This document shows, in pieces, positions 25,513 through 61,930 of a stretch of DNA of 64,000 nt (position 1 is its first letter; every line of letters starts with the position of its first letter). The position numbers were made by a program, and so were the translations under genes. Source of the DNA: Sphingobium quisquiliarum P25 (lineage in GTDB: Bacteria > Pseudomonadota > Alphaproteobacteria > Sphingomonadales > Sphingomonadaceae). The notes under the pieces were generated by a model that saw only the letters and a list, made by a program, of their open reading frames with translations, ran no database searches and was not told the origin of the DNA. The stretch is from positions 1 to 64,000 of the forward strand of contig NZ_ATHO01000101.1 in NCBI RefSeq assembly GCF_000445065.1. Direction: 5' to 3'.

Positions 25513-26436
25513 TCAGATTCGCTCGCCGGACAGGCGCTGGCAGAGCATGTCCAGTTGATCCAGGGTCGAGTAGCGAAGCGATAGGGTGCCAGCGCCGCCA
25601 CCGGCATGGGCGATGTCCACCCGCACGCCCAGAATGTCGGCGAGATGCTGCTCCAGCGCGGCGATATCCGGGTCCTTGTCCCCCGTCTGGCGCGCCCGCT
25701 CGCGCGGGGCTGCGTCATTCCCCTTCTTGGCGCGGCGGACAAGTTCCTCCGTGTCGCGGACGGACAGCCCCTTGGCTTCCACGGTGCGGGCAAGGGCTTC
25801 GCAATCAGGCGCGCCGATCAGGGCACGCGCGTGCCCCATGGACAGCTTCTGTTCGATCACCTGCCGCTGAACGGGCGAGGGAAGGTCGAGCAGGCGCATG
25901 AGATTGGCGATATGGCTGCGGGACTTGCCCACCAACCGGCCCAGCGCTTCCTGGCTGTGATGGAACTCGGCGATCAGCTTGCGATAAGCTTCCGCCTCTT
26001 CAATGGGATTCAGGTCCTCGCGCTGGATATTTTCCACCAGCGCGATTTCCAGCGTCTCCGCCTCATCAAAGTCGCGGATAATGGCCGGGATACGATGAAG
26101 CTGCGCCCGCTGCGCCGCCCGCCAGCGGCGTTCCCCCGCAACGATCTGGAACCCGCCGCCATGCGGACGAACAATGATCGGCTGGATCACGCCCCGCTTG
26201 CTGATGCTTTCGGCCAGTTCCGCCAGCGCATCCTCATCGAAATGGCGGCGCGGCTGTTCCGGGTGAGGCTGAACAAGGGCGACTTCGATGCTCTGGATGG
26301 CCTTGCTGGAGGCCGTGGGCATCGCGGGCGCGACGGGCTCCTCCCGGGCAACATCTCCAAGCAGTGCCGACAGGCCACGCCCCAACCCTTGCGGGCGCTT
26401 GGCCACCTTCAGCTTTTCATCACCATCATTGCTCAA
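25513..26436 (-). CDS. parB: Chromosome partitioning protein ParB
   Basis: ParB binds parS, spreads as a CTP-dependent clamp and marks the origin region for segregation by ParA; in alphaproteobacteria it also recruits MipZ. The 307-residue protein has the N-terminal GRGLSALLG start, the CTP-binding ParB/Srx motifs [12 protein letters not shown] and [17 protein letters not shown], then the HTH ([22 protein letters not shown]) and a C-terminal dimer domain. It starts at TTG overlapping the parA stop (TTGA). Three parS-like palindromes lie 0.8-3.3 kb upstream in the same operon. Confidence 0.97.
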
Positions 26437-27215
26437 GCAGCTATCTCCTGTGCAGGAAGCCGGGATATCAGTTCACGTGCAAGACGCATATAGGCTTCCG
26501 ACCCTGAACAGCGAAAATCATAGATCAGCGCGGGCACGCCATGGCTCGGTGCCTCGGAAAGCCGCACATTACGGGGGATGACCGTATCGAACACCAGATC
26601 GCCCAGGCAGGCGCGAACATCGTCCGCAACCTGATCCGTGAGCCGGTTGCGCCTGTCATACATGGTCAGCGCAACTCCCATGATGGAGAGTTGGGGATTG
26701 AACCGCCCCCTGATGCGCTCAACGGTCTGCAACAATTGCGACAATCCCTCCAACGCAAAAAATTCACATTGAAGCGGGACCAACAGGGATTGTGCAGCCA
26801 CCATCGCGTTGATTGTCAAAAGCCCCAGGGATGGCGGGCAGTCGATCAGGCAAATATCCCAGCGGCCCGGCTGCCCTTCGCTCAAAACGCGTTCAAGGCG
26901 ATGGGTACGCTGCTCATATTCGATAAGTTCGATTTCCGCGCCCGACAGATCCTGCGTCGCTGGTACGATATCAAGCTTGGGAACCCGCGTCGGGAGGACT
27001 GCATCTTCCAAAGCACAGTTGCCCACAAGAAGGTCATAGCTGGACTGGCCGCGATCGGCCTGATTCACCCCCAGCCCGGTGGAAGCATTGCCTTGCGGAT
27101 CGAGATCAACGAGGAGGACCCGCAATCCCGTTGCAGCCAGCCCAGTCGCCAGGTTAATCGCGGTCGTGGTCTTACCCACCCCGCCCTTTTGGTTGGCAAT
27201 GGCGATGCGGATCAT
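26433..27215 (-). CDS. parA: Chromosome partitioning ATPase ParA
   Basis: A Walker-type ATPase that forms gradients on the nucleoid and pulls ParB-parS complexes to the poles. The 260-residue protein has the deviant Walker [10 protein letters not shown] (10-18), switch DLDPQGNAS and the ParA motif [13 protein letters not shown]. The start ATG at 27213-27215 is supported by GGAAAGG upstream and overlaps the rsmG stop by four bases; a longer frame would intrude into rsmG. Chromosomal Soj/ParA type rather than plasmid type, given its position in the mnmE-mnmG-rsmG-parAB cluster. Confidence 0.97.
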
Positions 27216-27853
27216 GTTCGACCTTTCCTTGCCTTGGCTTTCACGGCGCGCGCAATGATGATGGCGCTCTCTGCATCCGTGATGCTGCGTTCCACGTGGA
27301 ACACACCTTGCCATGCCGACTGCACCGCCTCCAGTTCATTTTCCGCATTTCGTCCCTTTGGCAGCACCCATAGGGTTTTTTCTGTGGAAAGATGGACCGC
27401 CGACTGGAACAATTTGGGCAGAGGCGCATAGGCGCGGGCACTGATCACCGCCGCAGACATGCCGGGCATATTCTCTACCCTGCCGCCAAAAACACGGGCA
27501 TGTGTCAGTCCCAGGTCATCAATAACTGATTGCAGAAACTCGACCCGCTTGCGTCGGCTTTCAATCATGATCAACGGCCGTACCGACAAAATCGCGGCAA
27601 TTATACCTGGAAGCCCCGCACCCGATCCGAGATCGACCCAACTTCCCTCCCCTGCTTCCTCCGCCCATTTCAGAAGCTGCGCTGAATCAACGATATGCCG
27701 CGCCCAGATTTGGGGACGGGTCGATTCCGCAATTAAATTCTGATGCTCCATCTCGGCAGTCAGGATCGCCACATAGCGCTCCAGCCGATCCCATGTTCCA
27801 CGTGAAACACTGAACTGCGCCTGCAACCAAGCGCGCGCCTCATCTTCTGTCAC
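27212..27853 (-). CDS. rsmG: 16S rRNA (guanine-527 N7)-methyltransferase
   Basis: RsmG (GidB) methylates G527 of 16S rRNA with SAM. The 213-residue protein has the motif [10 protein letters not shown] (74-83), the family stretch [23 protein letters not shown] helix-strand region and the C-terminal [19 protein letters not shown] start at 27851-27853 overlaps the mnmG stop (GTGA). Notably, two parS palindromes lie inside its coding sequence (27288-27303 and 27794-27809), encoding VFHVE and VSRGT. Confidence 0.97.
27288..27303. promoter_or_regulatory. parS site 1 (inside rsmG)
   Basis: CGTTCCACGTGGAACA matches the parS consensus TGTTNCACGTGAAACA in its palindromic core GTTCCACGTGGAAC. It is in the 3' part of rsmG, about 850 bp upstream of the parB start. 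ParB nucleation site, inferred from sequence and proximity to parAB. Confidence 0.85.
27794..27809. promoter_or_regulatory. parS site 2 (inside rsmG 5' end)
   Basis: TGTTCCACGTGAAACA, a full 16-bp match to the canonical parS consensus. It lies near the start of rsmG, 506 bp from site 1. Confidence 0.92.
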
Positions 27854-29697
27854 GCCGCCCGCCGCTTGATATGCGCCAGTAGGGCCGCCAAAGCCGCAGG
27901 CGTCACGCCCCTGATCCTGCTCGCTGCCGCGAGCGTATCCGGCCGCACGTGCTCCAACCGCTCGATCATCTCATTCGACAACCCACCAATTGAGGAGTAA
28001 TCGAATTCACTCGCTATATTGATCCGCTCATTGCGGCGCAGGTCAGCGATCTCCGCTTCCTGCCGTTCGAGATAAGGCGCATAGCGCGCATCCTCCAAAA
28101 GCTCCTCCCGCTGCTCCTCATCCATCCGCATCAGCGACGGAGCCAAGGAAAACAGCAATTCGCGAGAGACTTCGGGAAAGCGCGCCCAATCGAACAAGGA
28201 CCGGCGTGACCCGTCCTGACGCACCGCCGCTCCCGCGCGCATCATCTCCGTAGCGCTCAACGTAGCGCTCAGCTCCTGCTCCGCTTCATTCCTCCGCGTC
28301 TGGCGGAGATCATAATGATGCCCACGCTCATCACCGATAAGGCCATGCTCGCGCCCGATCGCTTCGAGGCGTGACCCTGCATTGTCGGCACGCAGGCGGA
28401 GGCGATATTCCGCGCGCGCCGTCAGCATCCGGTATGGCTCGGTCACGCCTTGCAGAACCAGATCGTCGATCATCACCCCGATATAGCTGCTCGCGCGGTC
28501 AAGAATCATCGGCGCTTCACCCCTAACCTTGGCCGCCGCATTCGCGCCAGCGACAAGTCCCTGCGCCGCCGCCTCCTCATAGCCGGTCGTGCCGTTGATC
28601 TGCCCCGCGCAGAACAGGCCGGGCACCGCCCTCACCTCCAAGCTCGAACTCAGCGCGCGCGGATCGATATGGTCATATTCGACCGCATAGCCCGGCACGA
28701 CAATCTCGGCCTTTTCCAAACCCGCCATGGATCGGACCATGGCAAGTTGAACATCGGCTGGCAGCGAGGTGCTGATGCCGTTCGGGTAGACGAGGTGATC
28801 CGCCAACCCCTCCGGTTCCAGAAATATCTGGTGCCCATCCCGATCGCCAAAGCGGATCACCTTGTCTTCAATGGAGGGACAATAGCGCGGCCCCCGCCCC
28901 TCGATCGCGCCGCTGAACAAAGGCGACCGGCCCAGCCCTTCTCGAATGATAGCGTGCGTCCGCTCGTTCGTCCGGGTAATGGCACAGCTAAGCTGCGGCA
29001 GAAGACGCTCAGGCGTGAGCCCGGACATGGTCCAGCGTCCGTCATCGGAAGGCTGCTCCTCCAGCTTTGCCCAATCGATCGTGCGTCCATCCAGCCGGGG
29101 CGGCGTGCCGGTCTTCAGCCGCGCCATCGGCAATCCCATTTCCCGCATCTGGAGGCCAAGCCGGGTTGCAGCCCGCTCTCCCGTCCGCCCACCCGCATCG
29201 ACATCCTCCCCCCGGAACAGCTTACCGCCCAGGAAGGTGCCCGTGGCCAGAACCACCGCAGCAGCGGTCAGATTCCGTCCGTCCGCCAGGAGAAGGCCAC
29301 TAACCTCCCCCTCAGACAGCAGCAGATCCGAGGCCTCACCTTCAACAATTTCCAGCCCGGCATAATCCTCCAGTAACTGGTGAATGGCCGCGCGATACCG
29401 GGCCCGGTCGGCCTGGATACGTGGCCCTTGCACCGCAGCGCCTTTGCTGCTGTTGAGCATCCGATAGTGGATCGCCGCGGCATCCGCTGCACGACCGATC
29501 AGACCATCAAGCGCGTCAACTTCCCTGACAAGATGCCCCTTGCCAAGCCCGCCAATCGCCGGATTGCAGGACATCGATCCAACGGTGGCGCGCGAGAAGG
29601 TCAACAGCGCCACCTTCGCGCCCTTGCGTGCCGCAGCAGCCGCTGCCTCGCAGCCGGCATGACCGCCGCCCACCACAATCACATCATATCTTTGCAT
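27850..29697 (-). CDS. mnmG: tRNA uridine-5-carboxymethylaminomethyl modification enzyme MnmG
   Basis: The FAD-dependent partner of MnmE; together they install cmnm5 on U34 of certain tRNAs. The 615-residue protein starts with the dinucleotide-binding motif [12 protein letters not shown], followed by [24 protein letters not shown], both strict MnmG signatures. The C-terminus ([29 protein letters not shown]) is the tRNA-binding/MnmE-interacting helical domain. It lies 60 bp downstream of mnmE, with a parS site in the gap, and overlaps rsmG by four bases. Confidence 0.98.
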
Positions 29698-29737
29698 GAG
29701 CGCGCCCTTACCAGAAGGATGGGCTCAGGGTCAAAAC

Positions 29738-29753
29738 TGTTCCACGTGGAACA
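29738..29753. promoter_or_regulatory. parS site 3 (mnmE-mnmG gap)
   Basis: TGTTCCACGTGGAACA, a perfect 16-bp palindrome of the parS type, in the 60-bp spacer between mnmE and mnmG. With sites 1 and 2 it gives three parS within 2.5 kb, about 31-33 kb from oriC. Confidence 0.92.
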
Positions 29754-29757
29754 GCGC

Positions 29758-31038
29758 TCATTTGCCGATGCAGAAACCCGCAAATAGCTGGTCTAGCATA
29801 TCCTCGGTGCTCGCCTGCCCCGTCAGGCGATCAATGGCCCCCCGCGCCCGCCGCAATTCTTCCGCCGTTACAAGCAGATCCCTGGCAGCCCGTGCCGCCA
29901 CTATATGCTCCAGCAATATGGCGGCCCCTTCCCGTTGCCGCTGACGCAGGGCATAATCCCCCTGCTGCGGCAACAAGCCCCGTGCACGCTCCAGCATGAC
30001 CTGTACCAGAGCGCCCATCCCCTCGCCCGTCATGGCAGATACCGGCAACCCAGCGCGACCCGGCAGTCTATCTGCCTGAGCCGCGACCAGAATAGCATCA
30101 TCGCGAGGAAGCTCATCAGCCACTCCCAGCCACAGGATGATGTCCGCTGCTTCAAGAGCCGAGCGGGCACGCTCCATCCCGATCAGTTCGATCGCATCCC
30201 CGGATTCCTCCCGCAGGCCTGCCGTGTCGGTAAAAAGGAAGGCCACCCCCTCAATGGCTGCGGGCACTTCGATCCGGTCCCGTGTTGTGCCCGCAATGTC
30301 GGACACGATCGCCGCCTCCCGCCCCACCAGCGCGTTGAGCAAAGTGGACTTGCCCGCGTTGGGCGGTCCAGCCAGAACGACGCGGATGCCATCCCGCAGC
30401 CGCTCTGCCGAAGGAGCAGCAAGGACTTTCTCCACCTGGCTCACCAGATCATTCAGCCGCGCCATTATGCGGGCCTCGATCCCATCATCCGGGACATCAT
30501 CCTCATCGGAAAAGTCGAGCGCCGCTTCGGCCATTGCCGACACTTGCAGAAGCTGCTTGCGCCAATCCTCTATATGCCGGGAGAAATGCCCTTCCGCCAT
30601 CAGCAAGGCGGCGCGGCGCTGCTGCTGCGTTTCGGCCGCCAGCAAATCCGACAGACCCTCCACCGCGTTGAGGTCCATGCGACCGTTCAGGAATGCGCGC
30701 CTGGTAAATTCCCCCGGCTCCGCCATGCGCAGCCCAGGCAGGGCCGCCAGCGCACTTTCGACCGCCGCGATCACGGCTCGCCCGCCATGGCAATGAAGCT
30801 CCGCCAGATCCTCCCCCGTCACCGTCGCCGGGCCGGGGAACCAGAGGACGACCGCTCTATCCAGCATTTCGCCGGTGCCGGGATCGAAAATCCGGCTAAG
30901 CCGCGCTAGCCGCGGCGCAGGCAGCGCTTTCCCGCTAACCTGCCGCAACGCATCGCCAGCCGCCGGACCGCTTATGCGGATAATCCCTATGCCCGCAGGC
31001 GGTGCACCGCTCGACAGGGCAAAAATCGTGTCCGCCAC
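29758..31038 (-). CDS. mnmE: tRNA modification GTPase MnmE
   Basis: A GTPase that works with MnmG at tRNA wobble uridines. The 426-residue protein has the N-terminal formyl-THF-binding domain, then a G domain with GPPNAGKSTLLN (G1), the DIAGTTRD switch and DTAGLR (G3), inserted in a helical domain. The C-terminal catalytic motif CxGK is present as the last residues FCIGK. GTG start at 31036-31038. It heads the run mnmE-mnmG-rsmG-parA-parB, preceded four bases upstream by the DUF6489 gene. Confidence 0.98.
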   Translation of the reverse strand: MADTIFALSSGAPPAGIGIIRISGPAAGDALRQVSGKALPAPRLARLSRIFDPGTGEMLDRAVVLWFPGPATVTGEDLAELHCHGGRAVIAAVESALAALPGLRMAEPGEFTRRAFLNGRMDLNAVEGLSDLLAAETQQQRRAALLMAEGHFSRHIEDWRKQLLQVSAMAEAALDFSDEDDVPDDGIEARIMARLNDLVSQVEKVLAAPSAERLRDGIRVVLAGPPNAGKSTLLNALVGREAAIVSDIAGTTRDRIEVPAAIEGVAFLFTDTAGLREESGDAIELIGMERARSALEAADIILWLGVADELPRDDAILVAAQADRLPGRAGLPVSAMTGEGMGALVQVMLERARGLLPQQGDYALRQRQREGAAILLEHIVAARAARDLLVTAEELRRARGAIDRLTGQASTEDMLDQLFAGFCIGK

Positions 31039-31042
31039 CAGT

Positions 31043-31300
31043 TCAGGACTTGTCGTTGCCCATTTTGGGGGTCATCCCGGACAGACCGATATCCATCATC
31101 TGCTTGAATAGCTTCATACCCGCGTCACCCATGGGAGCGAAGGTCTTCACCACGGATTCCATCTGTTCGATGCTGGTCACGCCATCGATGCTGTCGAGCA
31201 CGGTCTTCACATATTTGTCGTGAATGGGCGTCACATCAGGCAGGCCGAGGAAGGCGCGCGCTTCGGCCGGGGTGCAATCAACGTCAACGCTTACCTTCAT
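31043..31300 (-). CDS. DUF6489 family protein
   Basis: An 85-residue soluble protein beginning MKVSVDVDCTPAEARAFLG, with no membrane segment or catalytic motif I can name. It matches the small alphaproteobacterial family annotated DUF6489, typically beside mnmE. The ATG at 31298-31300 has AAGGA eight bases upstream. Its stop lies four bases before the mnmE GTG, so the pair is almost surely co-transcribed and may be translationally coupled. A structural role connected to mnmE is only inferred from that. Confidence 0.82.
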   Translation of the reverse strand: MKVSVDVDCTPAEARAFLGLPDVTPIHDKYVKTVLDSIDGVTSIEQMESVVKTFAPMGDAGMKLFKQMMDIGLSGMTPKMGNDKS

Positions 31301-31452
31301 CTTCGCGGATCCTTGCCAGCGGTCTTCCCAGCTTCCGTCATGCCGCAACAGGGCCGCCCAACGCAAATTTTTTACGCGAACGGCTGGTTGGCGTGCCGCT
31401 CAAAGCCGATTACTCATAGGCCTGAAAATAACAGCTGCGGAAAGGTCTTGCC

Positions 31453-32151
31453 ATGACAGCATATACGCCCATCCCCACCCTTGAAGGCGATGCCAGCTTC
31501 GACGCCTATATTGCCCGGCCAGCAGGCAAGCCCAAGGCGGCCATCATCGTCATTCAGGAGATTTTCGGCGTCAATGAAGGTATCCGCCGCAAATGCGACC
31601 ATTGGGCGCAGCAAGGATATCTCGCCGTCGCCCCTGACCTGTTCTGGCGCGACCAGCCGCATGTTGAACTGGATGCCGACAAGCCGGAGGAGTTTCAGAC
31701 GGCGCTCAGCCATATGCAGCGGATGGATCAGGATCTCGCCATTCGGGATATCGAAGCGGCGATCAAGGCAGCGCGCGCCGAACTGGGCGAAGGCGGGAAG
31801 GTCGGCGTGGTCGGTTACTGCCTCGGCGGAAGGCTGGCATTCATGGCCGCTTGCAGAACGGACGGGGACGCTTTCGTCGGCTATTATGGCGTGGGCATCG
31901 ACAACCTTCTGGGCGAGCAGCATGCGATTGGAAAGCCGGTGCTTCTGCATATCCCGACCGCTGATGGCTTTGTTCCTCCTGAAGCGCAGAAGAAGATGCA
32001 TGAGGGCTTGAAGGACAATCGCCACGTCACCCTGCATGACTATGAAGGCCTGGACCACGGCTTTGCCGCGGAGATGGGCAATCGCCGCAACGATGCCGCC
32101 GCGCAACTGGCGGATCAGCGGACGGCGGATTTCTTCGCGCAGAATCTCTGA
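31453..32151 (+). CDS. Dienelactone hydrolase family protein
   Basis: A 232-residue alpha/beta hydrolase with the dienelactone-hydrolase catalytic triad: Cys123 in GYCLGG, Asp171 in HIPTADGFVPP and His202 in GLDHGFA, plus E36 in IQEIFGVN. These align with the triad numbering of Pseudomonas DLH from memory. True DLH opens dienelactones in chloroaromatic degradation; most chromosomal relatives without catechol genes have unknown substrates, as is likely here. Downstream, 12 bp away, lies a quinone oxidoreductase gene, so the two may form an operon. Confidence 0.9.
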   Translation: MTAYTPIPTLEGDASFDAYIARPAGKPKAAIIVIQEIFGVNEGIRRKCDHWAQQGYLAVAPDLFWRDQPHVELDADKPEEFQTALSHMQRMDQDLAIRDIEAAIKAARAELGEGGKVGVVGYCLGGRLAFMAACRTDGDAFVGYYGVGIDNLLGEQHAIGKPVLLHIPTADGFVPPEAQKKMHEGLKDNRHVTLHDYEGLDHGFAAEMGNRRNDAAAQLADQRTADFFAQNL

Positions 32152-55767: not shown

Positions 55768-56221
55768 GCGCTTCGCCGCCCGCCAGCAGCGCGTGCAGCG
55801 CTTCAGGGGATTGAGCCCCGCGCAGCCGGGCGACATTGCCTTCCTCGCGCAGATATCGGGAAACCCGCGCCAGCGTCTTCAAATGCTCGGCGCCACTGTC
55901 CACCGGCGACAGCAGGGCAAAGACGATATCCACCGGCGCATCATCCACCGCATCGAAGGGCATGGCGGGGTTGAGCAAAGCAACGACGCCGCGCATCCGG
56001 TCGAGGCCGGGAATCTTCGCATGGGGAATGGCGACTCCGCCGCCAAAGCCGGTCGATCCCAGCTTTTCGCGCTCAAGCAGCGCTTCGGCCACAGCCTGGG
56101 ATTCCAGGCCATAGGCTGATGCCGCGAGTTGCCCGATCTTCTGGAAAAGCGGCCTCTTGCCATTCACCGAAAGGCCTGTGGCGAGCGCATCAAGCGCGAC
56201 GATATCGGTGAAATGAACCAT
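55754..56221 (-). CDS. ptsN: PTS IIA-like nitrogen-regulatory protein PtsN
   Basis: A 155-residue EIIA-Ntr type protein. The phosphorylated His67 lies in GGVAIPHAKIPGLDRM, the site motif. Acts in the nitrogen PTS relay with PtsP and NPr, controlling potassium uptake and stress responses; other members were not found in the window. I prefer the ATG at 56219-56221 (start MVHFTDIVAL); an upstream GTG would add 9 residues. Neighbours are hpf upstream (with a hairpin between) and a thioesterase downstream. Confidence 0.95.
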   Translation of the reverse strand: MVHFTDIVALDALATGLSVNGKRPLFQKIGQLAASAYGLESQAVAEALLEREKLGSTGFGGGVAIPHAKIPGLDRMRGVVALLNPAMPFDAVDDAPVDIVFALLSPVDSGAEHLKTLARVSRYLREEGNVARLRGAQSPEALHALLAGGEARDAA

Positions 56222-59168: not shown

Positions 59169-59758
59169 GACGGCAGAACGCCCCGTGTGCGCAGAAAGTC
59201 AAGCAGCGGCAGCAGCGGCAGGCCCTGGATCGCGAACTGGCTGCCTTCGATCCTGCTGAACAGCTGCGCGCCGGGCCCTTCGATCCGGTAACAGCCCACG
59301 CACCAGCGGCACTCATCCCATTCCCGGTCGAGATAGGAGGCGATGAATTCATCGGACAGCGGCCGCACGGTCATGCGCACCCGTTCGACATGCCGCCAGA
59401 TCGGCTCTCCGTTGAGGACGATGACGGCGGCGCTGTGCAGATGATGCACCTGACCCGACAGCAGCTTCAATATCCGTTCGGCGTCGGCCCGATCGACAGC
59501 CTTGTCGATCATGCTTCCGTCCCCCAGGCTCAACGTCTGGTCGCATCCCAGCACCAGCGCCCCGGCGACGCGGCGCGAAACGCGAAGCGCCTTCAACTCC
59601 GCCAGTGCATCCGCCAGCGCCCGCGCGTCCAGCCCGTCGGCACGCAGCGCGCCCTTCGCCGCTTCTTCGTCCACGCCGGGCGACAGCGCCTCGAACGGCA
59701 CCTGCGCCGCTTGCAGCAGGGCCCGGCGGCTCGCGCTTTGGGAAGCCAGCACGATCAT
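59165..59758 (-). CDS. Maf-family nucleotide pyrophosphatase
   Basis: A 197-residue house-cleaning pyrophosphatase that hydrolyses non-canonical or methylated nucleotides (dTTP/UTP or m7GTP type). N-terminal motif VLASQSASRRALLQ and GCDQTLSLGDG are diagnostic. Overlaps the PPSR stop by four bases (ATGA) and aroE by four. The substrate subgroup is not resolved. It is the Maf gene next to oriC in the Caulobacter order. Confidence 0.93.
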   Translation of the reverse strand: MIVLASQSASRRALLQAAQVPFEALSPGVDEEAAKGALRADGLDARALADALAELKALRVSRRVAGALVLGCDQTLSLGDGSMIDKAVDRADAERILKLLSGQVHHLHSAAVIVLNGEPIWRHVERVRMTVRPLSDEFIASYLDREWDECRWCVGCYRIEGPGAQLFSRIEGSQFAIQGLPLLPLLDFLRTRGVLPS

Positions 59759-60582
59759 ATGTCATTTCCTTCCGCCAGCACGCGGTCGTTGAACAGGTTG
59801 ATGATGGCCGCGGCGGCTTCCTCGATCGACCGGCGGGTCATGTCGATCACCGGCCAGCCATTGTCGGCGAACATGCGGCGGGCAAAGGCCAGCTCCTCCT
59901 GCACCTTCTCTATGTCCACATAGCTGGTTTCCGGCGCCTGGTTGAGCGACAGCAGCCGGTTGCGGCGGATCTGCACCAGCCGTTCGGGACTGACGGTAAG
60001 GCCGACGACCATGGGATGTTTCAGCGAAAACAGGCTGCGCGGCGGGGGCGATTGCACCACCAGCGGGATATTGGCGGTCTTGTAACCCCTGTTGGCAAGG
60101 TAGATGGACGTTGGCGTCTTGGACGCGCGCGACACGCCCGCCAGGACGATGTCGGCCTCCTCCCAATTTTCATGTCCCACGCCGTCATCATGGGCGATGG
60201 TGAACTGGATCGCCTCGATCCGTGCGAAATAGGCCTCGTCCAATATATGCTTGCGGCCCGGCCGGTTGCGGGTTTCCTGCCCCAATATGTTGGACAGCGC
60301 GTCCGTCACGCTGTCGAGCGCGGCGACATGGGGCAGGCCCAGCGCCCGGCACCGCGTCTCCAGCCGCCGCCGCAACTGGTGATTGGACAGGGTGAAAAGC
60401 ACCAGGCCCGGATTGGCGGCGATCTCCTCCATGATCCGGTCGAGATGGACATCGGACCGCACCATGGGCCAGAAATGCCGTACCGCCTCCACATTTTCGA
60501 ATGCGCCGATCGCCGCCTTGGCGATATTTTCCAGCGTTTCGCCGGTGGAGTCCGACAGGAGGTGAAGGTGAATGCGCGACAT
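59755..60582 (-). CDS. Pyruvate,water dikinase regulatory protein (PPSR, DUF299)
   Basis: A 275-residue bifunctional kinase/pyrophosphorylase that switches PEP synthetase or PPDK on and off. The nucleotide motif is GVSRASKTPTSIYLANRG (P-loop-like), typical of the DUF299 family, and the N-terminus (MSRIHLHLLSDSTGETLE) is nearly invariant. In Caulobacter and Rickettsia this gene (RP001 homologue) flanks oriC; here it sits directly left of the predicted origin, reading away from it. No PpdK/PpsA gene in the window. Confidence 0.95.
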   Translation of the reverse strand: MSRIHLHLLSDSTGETLENIAKAAIGAFENVEAVRHFWPMVRSDVHLDRIMEEIAANPGLVLFTLSNHQLRRRLETRCRALGLPHVAALDSVTDALSNILGQETRNRPGRKHILDEAYFARIEAIQFTIAHDDGVGHENWEEADIVLAGVSRASKTPTSIYLANRGYKTANIPLVVQSPPPRSLFSLKHPMVVGLTVSPERLVQIRRNRLLSLNQAPETSYVDIEKVQEELAFARRMFADNGWPVIDMTRRSIEEAAAAIINLFNDRVLAEGNDI

Positions 60583-60605
60583 GGAGCATATCTCTGTGTG
60601 GAGGC

Positions 60606-60614
60606 TGTGGATAA
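60606..60614 (-). promoter_or_regulatory. DnaA box, perfect
   Basis: TGTGGATAA on the plus strand, that is TTATCCACA on minus, exactly the high-affinity DnaA consensus. It lies 24 bp upstream of the PPSR start and may also repress that gene. Confidence 0.85.
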
Positions 60615-60674
60615 AGCAAGGGATAGGTTGCGGAGCAAATCGCCTCCTTTTCCCTCTCTGCGCTCCGCCTTTTT

Positions 60675-60726
60675 TTACCCACAGCCCTTCAACAAGCCCG
60701 TAATTTCATCCACATGCTGTGAGTAA
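60675..60726. promoter_or_regulatory. Cluster of three near-consensus DnaA boxes
   Basis: TTACCCACA (60675-60683) and TCATCCACA (60706-60714) each differ from TTATCCACA at one base; TGTGAGTAA (60718-60726, reverse TTACTCACA) at two. The three sit within 52 bp, 61 bp from the perfect box, a spacing compatible with cooperative DnaA binding. Confidence 0.65.
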
Positions 60727-60868
60727 CGGGGACAAGCCCATTGAATCGACCGGGTCGGCCTAGCTCGAAAGAGTCAAGCTGTTGGCAAATCCGGGCGTAG
60801 CGCATAAACCCCGCTGCCAAGCGCCCAACTATCTCCATCATCCTTTTAGAATCTAAATAAGAGAGTTT

Positions 60869-61930
60869 ATGACGGGACCAGATGCCGGCCAGTCCGCCGG
60901 GCCTTCCAAGCCGCTGCTTTCCGTCCTCAACGGTGAATGCCCCGCCGTGCCGCCCATGTGGCTGATGCGGCAGGCGGGCCGTTACCTGCCCGAATATCGC
61001 GCGCTGCGGGCTGAAAAGGGCGGCTTTCTGGAACTGGTCTATGACAGCGCGGCGGCGGCCGAGGTGACCTTGCAGCCGCTGCGCCGCTTCGGCTTTGATG
61101 GCGCGATCCTCTTTTCCGACATATTGATCATCCCCTACGCCATGGGCCAGGACCTCTGGTTCGAAGCGGGGGAGGGGCCCCGCCTCGCGCCCACGCTGGA
61201 CCAGACGGATCTTGCCGCGCTGAAACCCGATTTCAGCCGCTTCGACGCTGTCTATGAAACGGTGCGGCAGGTGAAGGCGGCGCTTGATCCCGCCGTCACC
61301 TTCCTTGGCTTTGCGGGCAGCCCCTGGACCATCGCCACCTATATGGTCGCGGGGCAGGGCAGCAAGGATCAGGGCGCGGCGCGGCGGCTCGCCTATAACG
61401 GCCCGGAACGCTTCGCCGCCATCATCGACGCCATCGTGGATGCGACCGTCACCTATCTGTCCGGCCAGATCCAGGCGGGGGTCGAAGCGGTGCAGCTGTT
61501 CGACAGCTGGGCGGGCAGCCTTGCTCCCTTGCAGTTCGACCGTTGGGTGATCGCACCCAATCGCGCGATCGTGGAACGGTTGAGGCAGCTTCATCCCGGC
61601 ATTCCGGTGATCGGCTTTCCCAAGGGCGCGGGCGCGAAGCTGGCGGACTATGCGGCGGGGACCGGCGTCGATGCGGTGGGCATCGATGAAACCGTCGATC
61701 CGCATTGGGCCAACCGCGTGCTTCCAGCGGGGCTGGCCGTACAGGGTAATCTCGATCCGCTTGCGCTCATCGCGGGCGGACGCGCGGTCGAAGAGGCGGT
61801 GGACAATATCCGCGCCGCCTTTGCGGGACGCCCGCACATCTTCAACCTGGGTCATGGAATCCTGCCCGACACGCCGGTTCCGCATGTCGAGGCGTTGATC
61901 ACCTATCTCCGGCAAGGAAAGGACGGCTGA
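60869..61930 (+). CDS. hemE: Uroporphyrinogen decarboxylase
   Basis: Converts uroporphyrinogen III to coproporphyrinogen III in haem synthesis. The 353-residue protein has PPMWLMRQAGRYLPEYR, the family start motif, then FSDILIIPYAMGQ and GFAGSPWTIATYMV; catalytic Asp is in FSDILI. GC-rich codons and length are normal. It lies directly right of oriC, as in Caulobacter, and its promoter is probably in the A/T-rich end of oriC. The hemJ start overlaps its stop (TGATG). Confidence 0.98.
   Translation: MTGPDAGQSAGPSKPLLSVLNGECPAVPPMWLMRQAGRYLPEYRALRAEKGGFLELVYDSAAAAEVTLQPLRRFGFDGAILFSDILIIPYAMGQDLWFEAGEGPRLAPTLDQTDLAALKPDFSRFDAVYETVRQVKAALDPAVTFLGFAGSPWTIATYMVAGQGSKDQGAARRLAYNGPERFAAIIDAIVDATVTYLSGQIQAGVEAVQLFDSWAGSLAPLQFDRWVIAPNRAIVERLRQLHPGIPVIGFPKGAGAKLADYAAGTGVDAVGIDETVDPHWANRVLPAGLAVQGNLDPLALIAGGRAVEEAVDNIRAAFAGRPHIFNLGHGILPDTPVPHVEALITYLRQGKDG

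Follow-up and report, generated by a model that had tools for sequence, protein, structure and literature searches.

A predicted chromosomal replication origin between PPSR and hemE in Sphingobium quisquiliarum P25, with conserved DnaA boxes and GANTC sites

RESULTS

The PPSR-hemE gap carries DnaA boxes and an A/T-rich element

We analyzed a window consisting of the first 64 kb of a 79,764-bp contig of the Sphingobium quisquiliarum P25 genome (4.17 Mb in 181 contigs). The predicted chromosomal oriC is the 286-bp gap at 60583..60868 between the divergent genes PPSR (59755..60582, minus strand; PF03618 kinase/pyrophosphorylase, COG1806) and hemE (60869..61930, plus strand; PF01208). Based on Pfam, the gene order is S30AE-type ribosome factor, dnaQ-type exonuclease, coaE, aroE, maf, and PPSR, all on the minus strand, followed by the gap and hemE on the plus strand. 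With maf-aroE-coaE-dnaQ beyond PPSR, this is the arrangement of hemE/PPSR-type origins. At the protein level, PPSR shares up to 99% identity with Sphingobium sequences, and a DNA match to the gap was present in 56 of 61 same-genus genomes, counting its own. Two assemblies from the genus have the gap split over one contig, with one part matching at its very start and the remaining part far along it, which would fit a circular chromosome linearized within the gap. In the window, mipZ (PF09140; 63347-64000) adjoins panC and lies ~2.5 kb from the predicted oriC. The DnaA gene is on a different contig from the predicted oriC; dnaA has been reported away from ori in Sphingomonadales (PMC8116508). 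Four equal-scoring weak DnaA-domain matches on four other contigs are probably copies of an IstB-like insertion-sequence ATPase.

For comparison, we used the gaps of the window and of the best 80 of 564 confirmed relative stretches (81 gaps). The titles of four of these relatives (L016, L023, L036, and L064) do not name the order, and six relatives without a hemE motif match (L029, L035, L037, L038, L039, and L063) were assigned a fixed gap of 300 bp. A non-redundant subset contained 25 gaps. The close alignment comprised 28 sequences, and a wider one the window, L004, L012, and L028-L081 minus L033 and L042. In a sample across the class, PPSR was found in 81 of 115 genomes, and 70 of these 81 loci were read; of those read, 7 lacked a hemE match in their stretch and 63 had a divergent PPSR-hemE gap. 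Dropping five of the latter (three from the same family and two of ≥1,000 bp) left 58 other-family gaps.

The gap contains four DnaA boxes. Box 1 (60606..60614, minus strand) is a perfect TTATCCACA, identical in all 28 closely aligned sequences and the sole perfect box in the 64 kb. Box 2 (60675..60683, plus strand; TTACCCACA) and box 3 (60706..60714, plus strand; TCATCCACA) have one mismatch each, and box 4 (60718..60726, minus strand; TTACTCACA) has two. Box 2 is TTATCCACA in many relatives, where a GANTC often stands immediately before it, and box 4 is at or near TTATCCACA in most of them and decayed here; at both, the window has lost consensus bases that most relatives keep. Boxes 1-3, with no more than one mismatch each, compare with a mean of 0.046 in dinucleotide shuffles, none of 1,000 of which reached three. 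Across the 81 gaps (window and best 80 of 564), we counted 228 such boxes versus 3.8 in mononucleotide shuffles, and in the alignment of the 28 close sequences, the boxes form islands of conservation. The gap, thus, has the DnaA-box cluster of a hemE/PPSR-type oriC.

Beside hemE, the stretch at 60830..60870 is a candidate unwinding element: the two 40-mers that begin at 60830 and 60831 have a GC content of 27.5%, the minimum of the whole 64-kb window, and by composition the gap has the A/T-rich region expected of such an origin. The alignments also revealed a non-DnaA block at 60771..60821 (plus strand; GAGTCAAGCTGTTGGCA...CATAAACCCCGCTGCCAA) that is strongly conserved in Sphingobium and whose core (GTCAA..TGTTGG-like) is present in 68 of the 81 gaps (window and best 80 of 564), one of which, L057, looks misplaced. 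By eye, this block has a −35-like TTGGCA (60782-60787) and a −10-like ATAAAC (60804-60809) on the plus strand and, therefore, probably carries the hemE promoter. Because the pattern TTGGCA-N15-19-[CT]ATAA occurs in only 35 of the same 81 gaps, which argues against a general promoter reading, we infer this promoter rather than observe it.

The gap in the window has no exact match to the IHF consensus WATCAN5WTR and in this respect lacks a feature of a CtrA-gated Caulobacter-type origin; one imperfect IHF-like match, to a longer consensus, lies at 60772. The consensus occurred 3 times in the 81 gaps (best 80 of 564) versus 9.2 expected and 15 times in the 58 other-family gaps versus 8.5 expected. 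We also considered DnaA-trio modules, for which the published minimum is three repeats (PMC8287927), and required four or more NAN trinucleotide repeats starting ≤16 bp after a DnaA box. The gap in the window had none in either strand setting, and the 81 gaps (best 80 of 564) had them at the frequency of shuffled tails (16 gaps versus 15.3; other strand setting, 12 versus 14.5), and unwinding through a DnaA-trio was rejected. A trinucleotide-looking CAN pattern sits between the promoter-like block and the A/T-rich stretch.

An earlier, sequence-only reading of this DNA had predicted oriC at 60583..60868 from the PPSR-gap-hemE gene order with maf-aroE-coaE-dnaQ, one perfect and three near DnaA boxes, three GANTC sites, and an A/T-rich stretch beside hemE, and had seen no TTAA-N7-TTAA motif. 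Each of these features was recovered here, and the predicted origin is well supported.

parS-like sites and GC skew in the vicinity of the gap

Three parS-like sites are located 31-33 kb from the gap, at 27288..27303 (one mismatch), 27794..27809 (exact to TGTTNCACGTGNAACA), and 29738..29753 (exact). They are the only three with at most one mismatch in the 181 contigs, and the reversed pattern used as a control had no match in the genome. The sites lie within a parAB-rsmG-mnmG-mnmE cluster that includes parB (25513..26436, minus strand; TIGR00180 above cut-off) and an open reading frame for a ParA-like ATPase (26433..27314, minus strand), which matched no model at cut-off and whose true start is probably further in. 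In the relative Sphingobium sp. 15-1, the parS-like sites at 2.473-2.494 Mb and the oriC near 2.527 Mb are about 33-54 kb apart. Over the parA-mnmG-mnmE-parS area, the window has a marked negative GC skew at 26001-32000 (down to −0.167 in 28001-30000).

The sequence-only reading had proposed cumulative GC skew as a check, and the outcome was mixed. On the 79.8-kb contig, the change point is at 60.0 kb, with a mean skew of −0.042 to the left and +0.006 to the right (permutation p 0.0105), while the cumulative curve reaches its strict minimum at 73.6 kb (−1634 versus −1588 to −1602 at the gap); right of the gap, the skew is flat. In Sphingobium sp. 15-1, sampled in 49 stretches (725 kb), the right-left difference at oriC is weak (0.030; permutation P 0.019), and the best fit is at 2.24-2.30 Mb (0.031) rather than at oriC. 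The skew evidence supports the placement of oriC without deciding it.

Exact CtrA sites are rare in PPSR-hemE gaps

The gap contains no TTAA-N7-TTAA with zero or one mismatch and no site under the looser published rule (PMC1914354), and the TTAA tetramer is missing from the gap and from 100 bp on either side; 21% of shuffled gaps also lack TTAA. Two-mismatch sites were discarded as candidates, their frequency in the window being at chance. Among the 81 gaps (window and best 80 of 564), exact sites are present in 2 (0.3 expected) and missing from 79; among the 58 other-family gaps, they are present in 7 and missing from 51. Sites with up to one mismatch numbered 17 in the 81 gaps versus 8.5 in mononucleotide shuffles, and the looser rule (PMC1914354) identified 6 of these 81 gaps versus 2.5 expected and 12 of the 58 versus 7.7 expected. 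CtrA sites are, thus, rare in both sets yet a little more frequent than chance predicts, so that occasional binding of CtrA is conceivable.

The genome encodes a full-length CtrA ortholog (NF045991 above cut-off) with roughly 80% identity to a Caulobacter sequence. TTAA-N7-TTAAC is not enriched genome-wide (three sites versus three for the reversed control), and the CtrA motif may therefore differ here. Because exact sites are scarce in relatives and in other families too, the lack of CtrA sites at this origin is real but ordinary for the group. Of the earlier proposal that this lack means gating unlike that in Caulobacter, one part stands, in that direct Caulobacter-style CtrA gating of the origin appears unlikely; the absence itself is not special.

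GANTC sites are conserved and in excess across related gaps

GANTC is the methylation site of CcrM. The gap has three such sites. The site at 60743..60747 is preserved in all 28 aligned sequences although its middle base varies (C, 24 sequences; A, 4); the site at 60771..60775 is kept in 27 of 28; and the site at 60849..60853, which lies in the A/T-rich stretch, is present in 22 of 28. A fourth GANTC abutting DnaA box 2 occurs in 20 of the 28 sequences and is missing here. Three sites in one gap are, on their own, near chance (shuffle P 0.078), and in a rough list of gaps in the window, the one at 55975-56128 is denser (3 sites in 154 bp versus 3 in 286 bp at oriC). A control for intergenic GANTC based on greedy open reading frames in the window was unusable because spurious frames covered oriC itself.

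Across related gaps, the numbers are larger. The 81 gaps (window and best 80 of 564) have 400 GANTC sites versus 113 expected from dinucleotide shuffles, with at least one in every gap, and the 25 non-redundant gaps have 96 versus 35.3 (sd 5.7), with 58 as the highest of 1,000 shuffles; in the 58 other-family gaps, the excess is 1.3-fold (129 versus 98 expected). At loci of mostly about 8.8 kb, the 300 bp upstream of PPSR have at least as many GANTC sites as any other 300-bp window tested in 66 of 80 relatives and more in 49 (best 80 of 564). In Sphingobium sp. 15-1, A/T-matched 300-bp windows have a mean of 0.80, and 1 of 193 reaches the 6 sites of its oriC. A perfect DnaA box with a GANTC immediately adjoining it occurs in 16 of the 81 gaps (best 80 of 564) and in none of the 58 from other families. 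Among seven control pentamers, AGNCT was also raised in the 81 gaps (best 80 of 564), by 2.23-fold, followed by TGNCA at 1.14-fold; TGNCA reached 1.51-fold in the 28 close sequences. As judged by eye, AGNCT lies in conserved flanks of DnaA boxes, and shared ancestry alone can therefore raise a pentamer count. The changing middle base at 60743 would, for this reason, be a better sign of selection on GANTC than the counts.

Homologs of ccrM and gcrA are encoded in the genome. The CcrM match is nearly full-length and below the model cut-off (613 of 830 bits). The gcrA homolog is split over the ends of two contigs (C144 and C175), with both parts in open frame and the ends not overlapping; this is most simply read as an assembly gap, and a broken gcrA was set aside.

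DISCUSSION

The gene order, the cluster of DnaA boxes, the A/T-rich element next to hemE, the parS/parAB neighborhood, and the local skew change point together give good support to the gap at 60583-60868 as the very probable chromosomal oriC, of the hemE/PPSR type, of a Sphingobium-like alphaproteobacterium. Pointing the other way are the position of the cumulative-skew minimum, the weak skew in the relative, the weakness of boxes 2 and 4, and the location of the DnaA gene elsewhere. Alternatively, the conserved sites could serve only to regulate PPSR and hemE, the two divergent genes, with the origin located elsewhere. The overlap of the putative hemE promoter with the most conserved non-DnaA block and the weak skew in Sphingobium sp. 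15-1 fit that explanation, but it does not account for the DnaA-box cluster, the A/T-rich element, the parS neighborhood, and the contig skew change point, and hemE origins are published for the class; we regard it as very improbable.

That Sphingomonadaceae have their oriC at hemE has already been published (PMC4741004): oriC is close to hemE for most members of the family in DoriC, and the predicted oriC of Sphingopyxis granuli TFA and of other Sphingomonadaceae resembles the present one in its position near hemE, conserved gene organization, and putative DnaA boxes and DUE, although Sphingopyxis is a genus other than Sphingobium. The main text of that report does not mention CtrA. The hemE location is also reported for Novosphingobium (PMC4059872). 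With Caulobacter crescentus Cori, the gap shares its flanking genes (hemE and COG1806/PPSR) and the presence of DnaA boxes, and several GANTC sites are reported in Cori too (PMC3973325); unlike the gap, Cori has five CtrA sites centered on TTAA-N7-TTAA (PMC1914354). The predicted origins of Ehrlichia ruminantium and a pseudoscorpion Wolbachia are likewise flanked by hemE and reported without a CtrA site, but these bacteria are obligate intracellular, COG1253 replaces PPSR as the partner, and IHF sites are reported (PMC1914354).

As for how the origin would work, we suggest that DnaA recognizes the strong 60606 box together with three weaker ones (60675, 60706, and 60718), that the DnaA complex extends toward hemE, and that the A/T-rich stretch at 60830-60870 may then open, in a region that would also hold the probable hemE promoter. 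CtrA probably does not gate this origin by direct binding as in Caulobacter, and DnaA itself would more likely determine the timing, which methylation of the conserved GANTC sites by CcrM may modulate.

CtrA could still control the origin, either through degenerate sites outside TTAA-N7-TTAA or indirectly through other genes. The full-length ortholog and the rare sites somewhat above chance in the 81 gaps (best 80 of 564; exact, 2 versus 0.3) are in agreement with this, and because CtrA influences replication in Sphingomonas melonis (PMC8116508), an indirect role is conceivable. The same report describes that loss of ctrA harms neither growth nor viability in that species, the Brucella abortus origin is reported not to be bound by CtrA (PMC2877005), and the gap has no CtrA site at any of the three stringencies (exact, one-mismatch, and loose), nor any TTAA in or beside it; the equality of TTAA-N7-TTAAC with its reversed control also counts against such control, with the caveat that the motif may differ here. 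On balance, we consider CtrA control rather unlikely.

It seems to us likewise unlikely that CcrM, by methylating the conserved GANTC sites, modulates the origin or its hemE promoter and so substitutes for a CtrA gate. Such modulation would explain the GANTC excess in the 81 gaps (best 80 of 564) and in the non-redundant subset, the preservation of the 60743 site in all 28 sequences despite its changing middle base, the sites abutting perfect DnaA boxes in 16 of those 81 gaps versus none in other families, and the presence of ccrM and gcrA homologs; Caulobacter cells overexpressing CcrM, moreover, accumulate extra chromosome copies (cited in PMC3973325). Against this, the three sites here are near chance, another gap, at 55975-56128, is denser, the site abutting box 2 is missing, AGNCT is raised as well (best 80 of 564), and a promoter role accounts for the sites equally well. 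Orders with CcrM also generally show an enrichment of GANTC in intergenic DNA, and Caulobacter without CcrM has a wild-type-like DNA-content profile, from which its authors conclude that CcrM is not required (both in PMC3973325); in Agrobacterium, CcrM depletion is reported to affect ori2 and not detectably the DnaA-dependent ori1 (PMC11514494). A stronger proposal is that selection maintains a cluster of CcrM sites at the Sphingomonadales chromosome origin, some of them next to DnaA boxes, with firing and re-firing of the origin depending on their methylation state, by analogy with Dam/SeqA and as a substitute for the CtrA gate; we estimate this to be quite unlikely. GANTC clusters at sphingomonad origins are undescribed in the titles and abstract openings of the literature searched, which included few subscription journals.

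Taken together, the analysis places the predicted origin in this genome and indicates that a lack of exact CtrA sites is common at hemE origins, both among the best 80 of 564 relatives and in the class sample. Methylation sites conserved across the order at oriC would offer a testable alternative to Caulobacter-style control.
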